Virus record (IMG/VR): IMGVR_UViG_3300036853_000134
Span: 1-64,000 of that record
From: a virus
Reading direction: 5' to 3' (one strand)
Length of the DNA: 64,000 nucleotides
Below are positions 25,500 through 52,210 of this stretch, piece by piece; positions within the stretch are counted from its first letter, which is position 1, and each line of letters begins with the position of its first letter. A model generated the notes under the pieces. That model saw nothing but the letters and a program-made list of their open reading frames with translations. It made no database searches and was not told the DNA's origin. Made by a program: the position numbers and the translations under genes.

Positions 25500-25901
25500 A
25501 TGGGCATAATTTACGGTTTTCTAATCGGTGCTGCATGTGTCGGCGTCTTCACGGTCTGGCAATACACCAAATACAGGCAGGCCATCCGCGAGGTTTCGGA
25601 TAAGTGGAAGGCGATCAATGACGAGTGGGAAACACGGTATCACAAACTTTACAATTCGTGGATGTCGGGAATTCAACCGACCGCGCAGCAGCGAATGGAT
25701 TGGGATATGAGCAGAATGCTCAAAAAGATGAACCAGATGGAATACGCGCCGACTGAGGGCGATTTGAATTCGTCGGGATTACAAGAAATCGTTAAGTCAT
25801 CAAGTCACTATCGCTCGTTGACACAAGCAGAACTGGACGATGTGAACAGACGAATGCAAGGTCACCGCGAAGTTATTTCAAAGTCGGACCCTTCGGCTTA
25901 G
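25500..25901 (+). CDS. Rightward membrane protein embedded in the leftward virion operon
   Basis: 133 residues on the opposite strand to all neighbours; GGAG six bases before the ATG. Residues 4-22 form one membrane segment (YGFLIGAACVGVFTVWQY), then a charged helical domain with a KKMNQMEYAPTEG segment. Its 3' end overlaps the portal's 3' end by 29 bases. A weak -10 (TAAAAT at 25473-25478) lies upstream. It is organised like a moron gene with its own control (see repeats at 25334-25409); a role in superinfection exclusion or lysis timing is only a guess. Confidence 0.75.
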   Translation: MGIIYGFLIGAACVGVFTVWQYTKYRQAIREVSDKWKAINDEWETRYHKLYNSWMSGIQPTAQQRMDWDMSRMLKKMNQMEYAPTEGDLNSSGLQEIVKSSSHYRSLTQAELDDVNRRMQGHREVISKSDPSA

Positions 25902-42198: not shown

Positions 42199-42270
42199 TC
42201 ACCGCCTCAGCGCCGCATAGATAACCAGCAACGTCGCAATCAGCCCGACCGCGCCGATTTTTGCGCTCAA
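42199..42270 (-). CDS. 23-residue membrane peptide
   Basis: TTG at 42270 overlaps the upstream stop and has GGAG five bases before it. One membrane segment (IGAVGLIATLLVIYAALRR). Together with the next two products it forms a small membrane cassette, possibly for lysis (inference). Confidence 0.4.
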   Translation of the reverse strand: MSAKIGAVGLIATLLVIYAALRR

Positions 42271-42386
42271 TCTTTCTCCTGCGTCGTGACCCGAGAGAGC
42301 AGCAGCATAAACACGAGCCAGGTTACCGTCTCAAATATTGCAGCAACAATGCCAGTCCTATACCGACGATAATACCAACCGCCCAT
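42267..42386 (-). CDS. 39-residue membrane peptide in a frame nested in 42323-42775
   Basis: ATG at 42386 lies inside the C-terminal membrane segment of the 150-residue protein, in another frame; the stop overlaps the next start. One membrane segment (TVTWLVFMLLLSRV). Weak ribosome site. Nested membrane genes are typical of lysis cassettes, but this could be chance. Confidence 0.35.
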   Translation of the reverse strand: MGGWYYRRYRTGIVAAIFETVTWLVFMLLLSRVTTQEKD

Positions 42387-42775
42387 TTAAGCCATTCCGC
42401 CGAGCTTTTACCAGACGCCTCGGCTCCGCTTATCTTGCTCAGAATCCCCATGACGGTATCAAGTTTAGCATCCAACGCTTCCATCTTTGCGTTTGCTTCC
42501 AGGCGGGGGATAAAAGTCTGTTGCTGGTAGGCGATATTGTCAGTCGCCATTCCGCGGAACTCGTTGACCTTTTCAAAGGAACGCGCTGTCCCGGTTTCTT
42601 CCTTGATGGCGGCTTTGTCGCGCTCCTGAAGAGATAATGCGTTCGCTTCCTTGACGCCTTCGAGAGCCAGAGCCGATGCCGCTTTCACGTCGGCAAACAT
42701 TTGGAGGTAGCGTTTTTCACGCTCGTCCATAATGGCGATGACAAATTCACGAATGCTGATTGGTCCATCGGACAT
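42323..42775 (-). CDS. Coiled-coil protein with C-terminal membrane anchor
   Basis: 150 residues. A charged coil (DEREKRYLQMFADVKAASAL...) and a tail anchor at ~128-147 (WAVGIIVGIGLALLLQYL). Topology is tail-anchored, with the coil in the cytoplasm (inference). It lies at the end of the leftward early block, next to two small membrane peptides. Confidence 0.65.
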   Translation of the reverse strand: MSDGPISIREFVIAIMDEREKRYLQMFADVKAASALALEGVKEANALSLQERDKAAIKEETGTARSFEKVNEFRGMATDNIAYQQQTFIPRLEANAKMEALDAKLDTVMGILSKISGAEASGKSSAEWLKWAVGIIVGIGLALLLQYLRR

Positions 42776-42781
42776 TGATTC

Positions 42782-43213
42782 CTACGGTTCGAGCAACGTA
42801 TACGCAGCGCCCTGAACGCATTGCGTGGCGGTTGACAACGCGAGACATACCGCCTCTGCATTCTCCACAGCAACACCATTAGCGCCATTGCCAGCGGTCC
42901 CCACAATCGATTCAATTCCATTGAGCCACGCCAGGCACTTCTCCTGATCGTTCAGGTTGCTGTCCACGGTCGGCATCATATTACTGAGGTATGGATTCAA
43001 ACCAGCGTGTAGCCCACCGCAAGCGGTCGCCAGAGCCAGCGCGAGCACGTCTAGGCCTTCAACGTTGCCAATCTCGACTAAATGTGCCCTGAGATAGCCT
43101 GTAGCTGTAATCGTGCCGCCACCGGTGAGGATTATTAACCTGCACGCGGCATTGCAAAAGGCAAGAAATGAGAAGTTTTCGGGATCTATGAGTTCTGTAT
43201 ATATTCCGGGCAT
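42782..43213 (-). CDS. Ala/Gly-rich protein, function unknown
   Basis: 143 residues with five Cys and hydrophobic helices (FLAFCNAACRLIILTGGG, VLALALATACGGLHAG). No signal peptide in the usual form. It may be membrane-associated. No family was recognised. Confidence 0.55.
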   Translation of the reverse strand: MPGIYTELIDPENFSFLAFCNAACRLIILTGGGTITATGYLRAHLVEIGNVEGLDVLALALATACGGLHAGLNPYLSNMMPTVDSNLNDQEKCLAWLNGIESIVGTAGNGANGVAVENAEAVCLALSTATQCVQGAAYTLLEP

Positions 43214-43216
43214 TGT

Positions 43217-43945
43217 CTATTTCTCCAATTCATCTGAATAGTTCGGTCGCTTTGGTATCGACGGAGGTTTCAGCCCCGACTCCCTCATCTGATCGCGTAA
43301 CAAAAACACATATGCCCACGACATGTCAACGTCGTCTTTCATTATCTTAAGCAGTCGCTCTGTATGTTGCTGATCGGCTTTTAACTGACCTTGCATTTCA
43401 CCCTGCCAGCGTGCGTCAGAGATTCTATTCGAGATCGACCAGAGCGCGAGTCCCGCCAAAACGAAGATAACGATTGCTTTCAGGTAGTCATCGCCGCTCC
43501 GTGCAGCTCTTGTTACCCGCGTCCGCTCTGCCTGTCGCTCAGACTTGCGCCTAGCCAGGTGGTCCAGTTCTTCCAGGATCCCGAGTCCCGTATTCTGCGC
43601 CTTGGCGAGTACCGCGGACGCCCCAGACGTTGCGGTTAGCAGCTTGGTAAATGGGATTTGTCGATCAGTCAATATCACCCGAATGGAATCATCGTGAAAA
43701 TCGCACGCCGTTATCTCTTCACTGACCTGAAACCCGTCACGGTCGCCTTTCAAACTGGCGTCGATTAACACAAACTGCGGAGCGTTATCGGACTTTACGG
43801 CTGTCTTGAACGCGGACACTCCTTGTATGCTGCCGTTGTAGGTAGTTGATTTGACGTTGACCGATTGGAATAGCGATTCCAGCGCGCCGGATAGGGCTAA
43901 ATCATCCGTTATTATGTGAATTGGACCTATGACTTGGCTTTCCAT
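43217..43945 (-). CDS. Membrane-anchored receiver-domain protein
   Basis: 242 residues. Residues ~8-130 have the order of a response-regulator receiver domain: an acid pair (IITDD, D14-D15), the phospho-acceptor position FVLID (D62), a hydroxyl after strand 4 (VILTD, T93) and Lys after strand 5 (VLAKA, K115). A basic linker leads to one membrane segment (~156-172) and then a charged coil. No kinase lies nearby. It could tap host phosphorelay signalling at the membrane; whether D62 is phosphorylated is unknown. Confidence 0.65.
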   Translation of the reverse strand: MESQVIGPIHIITDDLALSGALESLFQSVNVKSTTYNGSIQGVSAFKTAVKSDNAPQFVLIDASLKGDRDGFQVSEEITACDFHDDSIRVILTDRQIPFTKLLTATSGASAVLAKAQNTGLGILEELDHLARRKSERQAERTRVTRAARSGDDYLKAIVIFVLAGLALWSISNRISDARWQGEMQGQLKADQQHTERLLKIMKDDVDMSWAYVFLLRDQMRESGLKPPSIPKRPNYSDELEK

Positions 43946-43952
43946 TAAAGAC

Positions 43953-44240
43953 CTATGGGATGCGCGGAGTGTGGGCGATTATCCAGATCGCGGTTATCAG
44001 CCAGATCGTAATCTGTCCGAACCCCAAAGCACGCGTGAAGTAATGAGTTGTGATGCTCATCTCCAGATTCTTAACGGTGAGTTCCTCTTTGCGTGTCATA
44101 AGGTGAAAGATTGCCCTCGTTTCTGAAACCGCGCCCTCTACCAGGACCATTCTACGGTCGAAATCGGCCTGATCGTGCTCTATATAGGCAAGCCTTTGAA
44201 GTATCTCGCCGTACGTCTGACCCCCATTTGGTTCCGGCAT
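43953..44240 (-). CDS. Small coiled-coil protein with C-terminal membrane anchor
   Basis: 95 residues. N-terminal coil (YGEILQRLAYIEHDQADFDR) and a hydrophobic C-terminus (FGQITIWLITAIWIIAHTP). Same tail-anchored layout as 42323-42775. The ATG directly follows the upstream stop. Confidence 0.6.
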   Translation of the reverse strand: MPEPNGGQTYGEILQRLAYIEHDQADFDRRMVLVEGAVSETRAIFHLMTRKEELTVKNLEMSITTHYFTRALGFGQITIWLITAIWIIAHTPRIP

Positions 44241-44654: not shown

Positions 44655-45185
44655 CTATTTCCCTCTCGCCGCCAACTCCGCCTTGTAATCCTTGACGTGC
44701 TGATCCAATTCCTTCTGCTGTGCCTTGTAATCCACCGGTGCGCTACCAGCCCCGGCAGGCGCTCCATTCCCTGTAAACGCATTCCTGATCGAATTAAACA
44801 ACCCCACGCCGATATTGATTGCGAGCACAAGATTGCTCCCCGCGCCGAACGTGATTGCCAGCGACGATGCCAGGGACGCCAGTGAGTTGATTTTCTGCTC
44901 AGTCGTACCGTTGAACGCGCCGTTTTGAATATCCGCGTTGATCGTCCCGGCGATGCCTAACACTTGATTGATCGCCGCCAACTCGTCGCGGAATTGGGTT
45001 TTGCCTGCGTTGACGAGCGATTGGAGCGTTGACTGGACAGCGGTTAGGGACGTGAGGACGCCGGAGCTGATGCCCTTGGCATTGAAGCCGCCGCTACCGG
45101 GGGTGTTTGGCTTTGGAGTACCGCACGCGGAGAGGGTCAGTAGGATCGCTATCAGGGAAAGGGTCAAAACTTGTTTAAGCTTCAT
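44655..45185 (-). CDS. Lipoprotein
   Basis: 176 residues from the ATG at 45185 (AAGGA four bases upstream; an in-frame start at 45221 is rejected). Lipobox LSAC at residues 18-21 after a basic n-region and hydrophobic core (VLTLSLIAILLTLSAC). The residue after Cys is Gly, compatible with outer-membrane or cell-surface placement in Gram-negatives. A helical mature part includes a hydrophobic stretch near LVLAINIGVGLF. It may block superinfection or belong to lysis; both are guesses. Confidence 0.75.
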   Translation of the reverse strand: MKLKQVLTLSLIAILLTLSACGTPKPNTPGSGGFNAKGISSGVLTSLTAVQSTLQSLVNAGKTQFRDELAAINQVLGIAGTINADIQNGAFNGTTEQKINSLASLASSLAITFGAGSNLVLAINIGVGLFNSIRNAFTGNGAPAGAGSAPVDYKAQQKELDQHVKDYKAELAARGK

Positions 45186-45270
45186 AGATTCCTTTGTATC
45201 AAAAAGATGCGCGACAAGCACCGTAAGAGCCAGTTTGGCACAGGTTGCGTTTTAGTACAACAATAAATTA

Positions 45271-45507
45271 CTACAGGTCGAACAGCGTCCCCTGCGCATG
45301 CCACTCTATCGCATGCTCCCATGTCCCGTAAAACTTATCCCGCGCGCTCTCCCGCTGGCTTTTCAGGACGCGACCGCCGCGATGCCTGTAATCGAAGATG
45401 CCCAGGCGGAATACGCGCTCCTCTACGGGAATCTTTTTCTGTGCCGCAAGCTCCAGCCGGGCAACAGCGGGTTCACGACCGTCACAAAAATGGCAGAGAC
45501 ATGTCAT
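45271..45507 (-). CDS. 78-residue protein with Cys pair
   Basis: ATG at 45507 overlaps the DUF1937 stop (ATGA). CLCHFC at the N-terminus, then a charged middle, and an aromatic C-terminus (DKFYGTWEHAIEWHAQGTLF). No family was recognised. Confidence 0.6.
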   Translation of the reverse strand: MTCLCHFCDGREPAVARLELAAQKKIPVEERVFRLGIFDYRHRGGRVLKSQRESARDKFYGTWEHAIEWHAQGTLFDL

Positions 45508-45854
45508 ACGGCTAACTCGTATCCATCATCGGTCGGACGAATAAATTTGACCGGCTTCTTATATTCATCGGCGATCAATATTTCCGCGCTGATACCTTTG
45601 GATTCCCGCCAACCATCAATCATCAGTATCCAAAGTTCGTCACAGCGGGATATGAATTCCGTATCGAACTTGCGCCAGAATCCCCAATCGCCGGGCATCA
45701 TGAACAAAACGGCTATTGGATGATTATGAACTATGGGCGAAAAAACGACCGTATCGTTTTGCGTATAGAACGCGACGCATTGAAGGGCGGCATGGTAGCG
45801 CGCCTCTCTTATGCCAGGGTCTTTGTGTGAGTATGGCGACGCAAGATAAATCAC
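45504..45854 (-). CDS. DUF1937 family protein (deoxyribosyltransferase-like fold)
   Basis: 116 residues from a GTG at 45854 that overlaps the upstream stop (GTGA). The family pattern is plain: MIYLASPYSHKDP, FSPIVHNHPIA, DWGFWRKFD, CDELWILMIDGW, S.G..AEI. The fold is related to nucleoside 2-deoxyribosyltransferases and nucleotide-binding proteins; the role in phages is not established, perhaps handling modified nucleotides. Confidence 0.85.
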   Translation of the reverse strand: MIYLASPYSHKDPGIREARYHAALQCVAFYTQNDTVVFSPIVHNHPIAVLFMMPGDWGFWRKFDTEFISRCDELWILMIDGWRESKGISAEILIADEYKKPVKFIRPTDDGYELAV

Positions 45855-48157
45855 GCGGTTTCCTCCATGTTCTCAATTCCGGCAAACAGCCCCTGAGCGC
45901 CAGACGCATAAATAGCGCGCTCCATATTCTTGCTGGCGGCTCTGAAATATTCCGGCTTTAATTCGCAGCCGATACCTTTGCGTCCAAGTAGCAGTGATTG
46001 ATAAACCTCAGTGCCAATACCAAGAAAAGGGGTCAGGACTATTTCACCGGGATTTGACCACAATCGCACGCACCTTTCAACGGTCTCTAATTGAAGTGGT
46101 GCAATATGTCGCTCATCCTCTTGCCCCCGACCTTCCGCCGCGCTCAACGTTGCGGTTTCTTTTATGTCGTACCAGACGGGATGCGCCCATTTGATCCATT
46201 GTTCGTGACTCACGTCGGGATGGATTGCAACTTCGTTTTCACCGGGCTTGTGGAATATCAGAATATAATCTGCAAGCGCAGGGCGCAGCCAGCTCGAATC
46301 TTTTCGCAACTGGACGAACATCAGGCTTTTCGATTTCGTTCTAATTGCCTGTGATTGCGGGTTCTTTTGTATACAAATCTCCCCATAATATATAAAGCCT
46401 TTGTCGATAAAATGCCTGATTGTTTCCCCGCGAAAATCCATCATTCCGATGTAACCGTCCCGACCCTTCATCATTGGGATTTGCGCGACGTGAACACACA
46501 TTGAGCGGCCGGGCTTGAGCACGCGGAGCATATTTGACGAGATGAATTGAAAGTGCTCCCAGAATTCCGTCATCGTTTTACAGTTACCCAGATCCCTTTC
46601 GGTTGCCGAATAAGTGAATAGCGACCCGAATGGCGGAGAGTAAACCGAAAGATCAATGGAATTGTCAGGCAGTCCCGCAAGCACTTCGCAGGAATCACCG
46701 TGATAGATTGAATAGTCGTCGCCGTGTTTCTGGTTCATCACCTGAACATCAGCCGCTTTGGTGCCGAGCCATTTTGGTATTTGCATTGGCTGTACCGCGT
46801 CGTAATCCAGACGCGTCGTAACTTGTCCAATTTCCGCTTTCTCAAATTCGGCAACGTGTTTGATTAGCTCTTTCGTCATCGTGTCCGCCTCTCTCTCTTT
46901 TCGCAAAACGTTATCAAAAATATCCATTTCAATATCGGTCAGCACAATATAAACATTGACCGGCCGTGTTTGACCGAATCGCCACTCGCGCCGGATACCC
47001 TGAAAATATTCCTCATAGCTGTCATTCATTCCAAGGAAGAGCATGCGCGCGGCCGATTGAAAGTTCATCCCCTGCCCGGCAATCTTAGGCTTACTTATCA
47101 TCGTCTTGACTTCGCCCCGACCGAAGCCCATCAGGGTTTCCGTTTTACGCTCGATTGAATCACTGCCCTGAACGTTGACCGCATTGCCCAGTGCTTTTGC
47201 CAGCGCATCAGCTTCATCGTTCAGTCCGCACCAAATCAGCCATTGCTCATCCGGTTCTCGCTGGATTATTTCGACGGCCGCCTTGACCCGCTCGGCGATT
47301 GTTGATTTACGGACCTTTGCGCGGTCACCTACACCATGCAGACGGGTCGGGAATAATTGCCCATCGGGAACATAAGTTGACGGGACGACAACGGGAATGA
47401 TGCTCAACTCCGGCAAATCATATCCAGTGTCATCATGTCCAATATCCGATGGCTTGAGCAGCGACATTGCCCAGGATGCAAGCCACTTGTGGAACGCATC
47501 ACGTCCATGTTTTTTCAATCGCCAGCCATCTTCGTCATGAACAAAAAACGTCGATAGCATTTCCGTTCGTGTCATCACGCCAAGGAATTCGGCATGGTTC
47601 GCAATCTCCGAGATATCATTAGGGGCAGGTGTGGCTGTACAGCAAAGACGCAGCGGAATTACAGAGCAAAGCTTTATCAGTAAAGATCGGCGTTTGCCTT
47701 CAAAATGCTTCAGGCAGCTTGATTCGTCCAGAACGACCGCGCCGAATTTCGACATATTGAAATGCTCAATCATCTCGTAATTGATAATCGTGATACCGGA
47801 TTCCGGCGACTCTTCCATCTTGCGCGCATACGTGACCTTGATGCCCCACCTCGCGCCTTCTTCAACAGTTTGATGAGCAACCGCAAGCGGAGCGATTACA
47901 AGCGAGCGTCGCGCGGCCAGTTCGGCCCAGGACAACTGCATAATCGTCTTGCCAAGGCCAGTGGTAGCGAAAAGCGCGGATCGTCCTTTACGCAGTGACC
48001 ATCGCACTAAATCACGTTGAAACGGAAATAGATTCTTATTTAAGTCAGCGGCGTCAACCTCAAATCCGGCCGCAGATGCAACGACAGCTTTCGTTGAAAG
48101 AAACTCTTGATAAGAACTTGATATTGCGTTAGATTGCTCAACAGGCATTTGATTCAC
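45851..48157 (-). CDS. Fused superfamily-2 helicase and DNA methyltransferase
   Basis: 768 residues. Helicase part (~1-450): Q-like FPFQRDLVRW, Walker A ATTGLGKT at ~64-71, a DESS (DExx) box in VVLDESSCLKHF, TATPAPND, and C-terminal motifs with PKIAGQGMNFQSA and QGIRREWRFGQTRPV. Methyltransferase part (~490-768): YSPPFGS (motif IV of N4-C/N6-A type) and LTPFLGIGTEV (motif I). Such fusions occur in environmental phages. It may translocate DNA and modify it, or act in replication/anti-restriction. No nuclease motif was seen. Confidence 0.85.
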   Translation of the reverse strand: MNQMPVEQSNAISSSYQEFLSTKAVVASAAGFEVDAADLNKNLFPFQRDLVRWSLRKGRSALFATTGLGKTIMQLSWAELAARRSLVIAPLAVAHQTVEEGARWGIKVTYARKMEESPESGITIINYEMIEHFNMSKFGAVVLDESSCLKHFEGKRRSLLIKLCSVIPLRLCCTATPAPNDISEIANHAEFLGVMTRTEMLSTFFVHDEDGWRLKKHGRDAFHKWLASWAMSLLKPSDIGHDDTGYDLPELSIIPVVVPSTYVPDGQLFPTRLHGVGDRAKVRKSTIAERVKAAVEIIQREPDEQWLIWCGLNDEADALAKALGNAVNVQGSDSIERKTETLMGFGRGEVKTMISKPKIAGQGMNFQSAARMLFLGMNDSYEEYFQGIRREWRFGQTRPVNVYIVLTDIEMDIFDNVLRKEREADTMTKELIKHVAEFEKAEIGQVTTRLDYDAVQPMQIPKWLGTKAADVQVMNQKHGDDYSIYHGDSCEVLAGLPDNSIDLSVYSPPFGSLFTYSATERDLGNCKTMTEFWEHFQFISSNMLRVLKPGRSMCVHVAQIPMMKGRDGYIGMMDFRGETIRHFIDKGFIYYGEICIQKNPQSQAIRTKSKSLMFVQLRKDSSWLRPALADYILIFHKPGENEVAIHPDVSHEQWIKWAHPVWYDIKETATLSAAEGRGQEDERHIAPLQLETVERCVRLWSNPGEIVLTPFLGIGTEVYQSLLLGRKGIGCELKPEYFRAASKNMERAIYASGAQGLFAGIENMEETA

Positions 48158-51766: not shown

Positions 51767-52210
51767 CTACGCCGCCTTTCCCTCTTGAAACTCTGTCGCC
51801 GTCATCCCCGTCAGCCGCCTAAACGTCCGGCTGAAGAAGTGGCTGTCCTCAAACCCGCACGCGTATGCAATCTGCTTAATGCTCTTATCCGTCGTGCTCA
51901 TCATCAGCTTGGCCTTCTGAATCCGCCGCGTGTTAACCAGTGTCGGCAGGCCAGCGCCGAGGTATTTGTTTATCAGTGTCGATACGCGGGGAAACGACAG
52001 GCTGAACTCCGCCGCGATGAATTCAACACACATGTTCTCGTTCGCAAACTCTTTTTCAATGAACGCCAGTATCCGCGCCGCTAATTCCTTGTCGCTCGCA
52101 TCGCCTGGTATCAGCGAGATACGCTTTTGCAGGAGCATATCAATTGTTGAGTAATGCCCGCCGATCAGAGAATCAATTTCCGTTATCGCGTCTTTTGTTG
52201 CTTGATCCAT
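51767..52210 (-). CDS. AraC-family transcription regulator
   Basis: 147 residues. The C-terminal ~100 residues are a full AraC-type double helix-turn-helix, with the well-kept second half IKQIAYACGFEDSHFFSRTF and FRRLTGMTATEFQEG. The N-terminal ~45 residues are a short helix, not a sugar-binding cupin, so it is a minimal, perhaps constitutive DNA-binding protein. Such proteins usually are bacterial; one in a phage block may control host genes or phage promoters. Likely acquired from a bacterium (inference). Confidence 0.85.
   Translation of the reverse strand: MDQATKDAITEIDSLIGGHYSTIDMLLQKRISLIPGDASDKELAARILAFIEKEFANENMCVEFIAAEFSLSFPRVSTLINKYLGAGLPTLVNTRRIQKAKLMMSTTDKSIKQIAYACGFEDSHFFSRTFRRLTGMTATEFQEGKAA

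Follow-up and report, generated by a model that had tools for sequence, protein, structure and literature searches.

A membrane-anchored tailed-phage protein with a probable divergent receiver-like domain

The window analysed here is a 64,000-nucleotide stretch covering positions 1–64000 of a 66,935-base virus record, which its terminase, portal and head protein identify as a tailed phage. It contains a same-strand cassette of genes for a lipoprotein, an 86-aa protein, a 95-aa coil, a receiver-like protein, a 143-aa protein and a 150-aa coil, in that order (Table 1). The frame of the receiver-like gene scored as coding (0.089), with the five other frames of the interval at −0.10 to −0.27, and its translation gave the open reading frame and the positions of D14, D15, D62, T93 and K115 exactly as in an initial annotation of the locus. 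That annotation also described the neighbouring products encoded from 42323 and 43953 as tail-anchored coils, in agreement with best hydrophobic stretches that lie near their C-termini, at residues 128–146 of 150 (42323–42775) and 71–89 of 95 (43953–44240).

Table 1. Genes of the cassette and features of the receiver-like protein, in coordinates of the window.
Feature	Position	Strand	Basis or remark
Lipoprotein, ATG start inside the 44655–45221 ORF	44655..45185	−	Lipobox LSAC, our reading
95-aa coil, C-terminal membrane segment	43953..44240	−	Ends 7 nt before the start of the receiver-like gene
Receiver-like protein gene	43217–43945	−	ATG start, 242 aa; ORF list and translation
Receiver-like domain, residues 9–118	43592..43921	−	Active-site residues, profile tests
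D14/D15 codons	43901–43906	−	
D62 codon	43760–43762	−	
T93 codon	43667–43669	−	
K115 codon	43601–43603	−	
Linker, residues 119–153, arginine-rich end	43487..43591	−	Predicted cytosolic
Membrane segment, residues 154–172	43430..43486	−	Hydropathy
C-terminal tail, residues 173–242, predicted helices then proline-containing end	43220..43429	−	Predicted periplasmic
143-aa protein without family	42782..43213	−	3-nt gap from the receiver-like gene
150-aa coil, C-terminal membrane segment	42323..42775	−	Hydropathy

Two further, very short membrane peptides are possible at the cassette end on the minus strand: one of 23 aa (42199–42270), initiating at TTG downstream of an AGGAG-like site, and one of 39 aa (42267–42386) overlapping the gene of the 150-aa coil. 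Upstream of the cassette, 45504–45854 (−) encodes a DUF1937 protein (E 8.3e-16) with weak likeness to nucleoside deoxyribosyltransferases, and 45851–48157 (−) encodes a fusion of an SNF2-type helicase with an N6/N4 DNA methylase. Promoter and terminator scans stayed at chance level, and a repeat search returned trivial repeats alone.

The receiver-like protein has a single clear membrane segment, located after the receiver signature as first annotated; residues 154–172 are its best 19-residue hydrophobic stretch (Kyte-Doolittle 1.96). Charges of +6/−4 in the 20 preceding residues, read with the positive-inside rule, predict a cytosolic N-terminal domain and a periplasmic tail, so that hydropathy and charge together suggest an N-in inner-membrane protein. 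The tail, of about 70 residues, has several prolines close to its C-terminal end. What the initial annotation called a coil in this tail is retained here as a helix prediction, taken from a low-confidence structure model. Matches of the membrane part to AIF, TrbF, DUF919 and DUF2570 were far below cut-off or not significant.

A lysis cassette around the receiver-like gene is possible, and the protein could be a spanin-like lysis protein that partners the lipoprotein encoded at 44655–45185 and is regulated from the cytosolic side by its receiver-like domain. A spanin pair joins one protein of the inner membrane to a lipoprotein of the outer membrane (PMC6139136). The predicted N-in, C-out layout would suit such a role, since Rz-like two-component spanins similarly combine an inner-membrane protein, periplasmic helices and a nearby lipoprotein gene, here on the same strand. 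DUF2570, which is linked to phage lysis, does match the membrane part (E 0.034), although far below its own cut-off. We nonetheless consider a spanin-like role unlikely: the cytosolic domain is large in comparison with Rz-like spanins, and we know of no spanin with one of this size; no endolysin was recognised nearby among the proteins scanned, which represent part of the ORFs of the window; and the lipoprotein belongs to no family, and two genes stand between it and the receiver-like gene.

Very probably the N-terminal domain is a divergent receiver-like domain and not a recognised member of PF00072. Response_reg was absent from the Pfam matches of the domain at E values up to 10, and we use the term receiver-like because no match exceeded the curated Pfam cut-off (30.2 bits). 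No PHROGs family matched the N-terminal domain, and PADLOC returned nothing for the protein. Against NCBIfam, residues 1–131 gave five weak matches, four of which were to models of response regulators or hybrid kinases and aligned in register, namely MtrA (E 0.013), EpsW (E 0.032), an NahK/ErcS hybrid (E 0.049) and a sortase-system regulator (E 0.072). The ten control sequences (the reverse and nine shuffles) yielded one match, to a transporter, and no response regulator. The best sequence match of the same residues in the PDB was also a receiver (5tqj, E 0.72).

A profile trained on 16 E. coli K-12 receivers scored 15.3 bits against residues 1–131, a value reached by none of 20,000 shuffles (17,520 reported by the program, the highest at 10.5 bits). 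Within the window, the full protein scored 13.4 and the next best of the 202 ORFs reported scored 2.3. In a ranking of 1,014 ORFs (80 aa or longer, 34 loci), every score above that of the protein belonged to a known receiver, namely the 16 training receivers and DcuR (35.1 bits), which had been left out of the profile and whose sequence was cut at its start; the next non-receiver scored 6.1 bits. A separate profile scan of ORFs of at least 50 aa in 23 phage loci reached a maximum of 9.0, for an ORF antisense to a helicase. Sub-profiles were weaker, with 10.9 bits for the seven OmpR-type receivers (score reached by 1 of 5,000 shuffles) and 10.0 bits for the other nine (reached by one shuffle and two block shuffles, out of 5,000 each). 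An hhalign comparison spanned residues 8–118 (P 0.00017) and brought each of the five catalytic residues into alignment; controls gave P 0.0086 for the reversed sequence, at least 0.0085 for ten shuffles and at least 0.046 for five block shuffles.

Structure models were low in confidence. Single-sequence models of the whole protein (mean pLDDT 41.1, pTM 0.34) and of the N-terminal domain (mean pLDDT 47.7, pTM 0.48) both show the β1-α1-β2-α2-β3 order of a receiver, with confidence falling after residue 62. Foldseek found no match at E 0.001 or better for either model. With the N-terminal model, its top four matches were all receivers (BaeR, RssB, StyR and PhyR; E 0.028–0.066), and receivers by title made up 26 of the best 50 rows, plus four FleQ-domain rows, in counts that include several chains of one entry. 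A second-look fold comparison gave Z scores no higher than 7.3, too low for such matches to carry much weight. The structure search proposed as a check of the fold thus put receivers in the lead, among matches that were all weak and came from low-confidence models; it supports a (βα)5 receiver fold without proving it. A synthetase anticodon-binding domain fold was considered and rejected, as such matches do not lead with the N-terminal-only model.

The weak fold matches also include PTS EIIA, designed Rossmann proteins, PurE/PAICS and synthetase domains. Such non-receiver folds, and the missing curated family match, would be expected if this were some other flavodoxin-like domain whose motif residues agree with those of receivers by chance. 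The profile controls argue against that explanation (shuffles, block shuffles, the reversed sequence and the ranking of 1,014 ORFs), and we regard it as very unlikely. Of the membrane-tied receiver domain first annotated, the receiver likeness is therefore borne out by the sequence-profile tests, at scores below curated family cut-offs and with no confident fold, and we have high confidence that the protein carries a divergent, membrane-anchored receiver-like domain.

The DD, D, T and K set of this domain is complete, in the order and spacing found in CheY-like receivers (PF00072), which it also resembles in profile over residues 8–118, even though identity to the 16 E. coli receivers is only 12–20%. 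Positions around the active site differ. D+4 is K66, where all 16 E. coli receivers have Pro; T+1 is the acidic D94, acidic in none of the 16; K−3 is V112, aromatic in 13 of 16; and K+1 is A116, Pro in 13 of 16 and another residue in three. The protein thus departs from PF00072 in being below Pfam detection, in lacking a D+4 Pro, a small T+1 and an aromatic K−3, and in an architecture that couples its domain to a membrane segment but includes no known output domain. RssB, a soluble adaptor and a recurrent weak fold match, likewise has Val at K−3, but retains the canonical Pro and Ala positions.

In the available text of Bourret et al. 2025 (PMC12632262), receivers are defined by all five residues and pseudo-receivers by the lack of at least one, and D+4, T+1 and K−3 are tied to function and shifted in pseudo-receivers. 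Because it keeps all five, the domain is not a pseudo-receiver by that definition; the accessory features absent from it (Pro at D+4, small T+1, aromatic K−3) are usual but non-defining. Judged by these residues, the chemistry may have been kept while the usual switch to the output surface was lost. The altered D+4, T+1 and K−3 beside a complete catalytic set are therefore easier to reconcile with a sink or a docking domain than with a signalling switch.

Docking without phosphorylation is the main competitor: the receiver-like domain could serve for docking or dimerisation within a phage membrane complex that includes the neighbouring coils. The gene is tightly linked to those of two membrane coils, which speaks for this, as do changes at the positions that shift in pseudo-receivers (PMC12632262, in its available text), yet all five catalytic residues persist at so low an overall identity, and we hold a pure docking role to be possible but somewhat unlikely.

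Receivers are roughly as rare in phages as the initial annotation held: CheY matched 134 of 50,697 phage records, and among 60 of these 134, several carried bacterial genes such as cheA or were named Salmonella. A narrow literature search found no membrane-anchored response regulator. Alteromonas phage R8W likewise carries a receiver, in a PhoB-like regulator (PMC8228385, in its available text), which differs in that its annotation is that of a DNA-binding response regulator. In Pseudomonas phage LSL4, the protein PIT4 binds host histidine kinases, the target proposed here; a receiver domain is not among the PIT4 features described in the available text of that source, which states that no phage protein had previously been reported in direct contact with a two-component component (PMC10714779).

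Divergent receiver domains outside histidine-kinase systems, termed cRec, have been proposed in jumbo phages (PMC7824862, in its available text), and the present domain, likewise phage-borne and divergent, could by analogy process cyclic nucleotide phosphates outside two-component signalling. The upstream DUF1937 protein (45504–45854), with its weak deoxyribosyltransferase resemblance, is a thin link in that direction. The cRec domain is defined by linkage to NAD/ADP-ribose enzymes, which is not clearly seen here, and the proteins scanned yielded no match to a Macro, NADAR, Nudix or WYL domain; a cRec-like function appears extremely improbable.

The searches made here gave no relative of the receiver-like protein. 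Patterns of eight residues, which need close relatives and can miss distant ones, retrieved no relatives from viral_contigs with the whole protein, the tail or the N-terminal domain, and none of the receiver-like protein from genome_contigs. A tblastn search of phages at E up to 10 gave no match to the protein, and the membrane part and tail gave only a 15-residue chance match to a Sulfolobus virus (two records). A scan of the 23 virus records from which the terminase, portal and helicase relatives derive showed no Pfam receiver, with its control matching in 14 of 14 genomes; nor did these records match the receiver-like protein, in a search run without a positive control. Neither the cassette neighbour proteins nor the head protein matched in phages, and the portal pair had no match in genome_contigs.

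Terminase relatives are found in L002 and L003, and a 6.7-kb contig (L004) has 61% portal and 64% head-protein identity; the related phage contigs end short of the region of the receiver-like gene. The helicase-methylase (45851–48157) has relatives in 20 viral contigs at 40–51% identity, all without the cassette. Elsewhere in the window, a 133-aa membrane-plus-coil protein (25500–25901, +) adjoins the portal gene on the strand opposite the head genes and has a similar counterpart (42% over 96 aa) at L004 4062–4346. The phage also encodes an AraC-type DNA-binding domain (51767–52210, −; HTH_18 E 1.2e-17). A huge gene of at least 1794 aa runs from 61497 to beyond 64000 (−; L016 1498–6882) and is open to the end of the record; it has no Pfam match at E 0.01.

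The locus thus holds a receiver-like profile, a complete DD-D-T-K set and a membrane segment within a same-strand cassette of membrane proteins, and from this anatomy we tentatively favour a membrane-tethered decoy or phosphate sink for host histidine kinases. The divergent receiver-like domain would face the host cytosol, with one segment anchoring the protein at the inner membrane and a helical tail reaching the periplasm. Histidine kinases are mostly membrane proteins, and the domain would dock on them in place of their own response regulators, taking the phosphoryl group, presumably at D62, or blocking it, and so act as decoy or sink during infection. The lack of a known output domain fits a sink. 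The role suggested in the initial annotation, draining phosphate from host kinases or sensing those kinases, is doubtful: the complete catalytic set allows it and the changed surrounding positions weigh against it. An extended version, in which a tethered, phosphorylatable receiver drains resident kinases and the periplasmic tail couples the host signalling state to the phage membrane cassette, perhaps to set the moment of lysis or to exclude other phages, is decidedly unlikely.

Should docking prove to be the only function, the protein would be a modest case of a phage membrane protein that has put a receiver-like domain to another use. If instead the domain takes phosphate from host kinases, as in the sink that we tentatively favour, it would represent a new route by which a phage disarms the sensing of its host, and would offer a small natural tool to block two-component systems.
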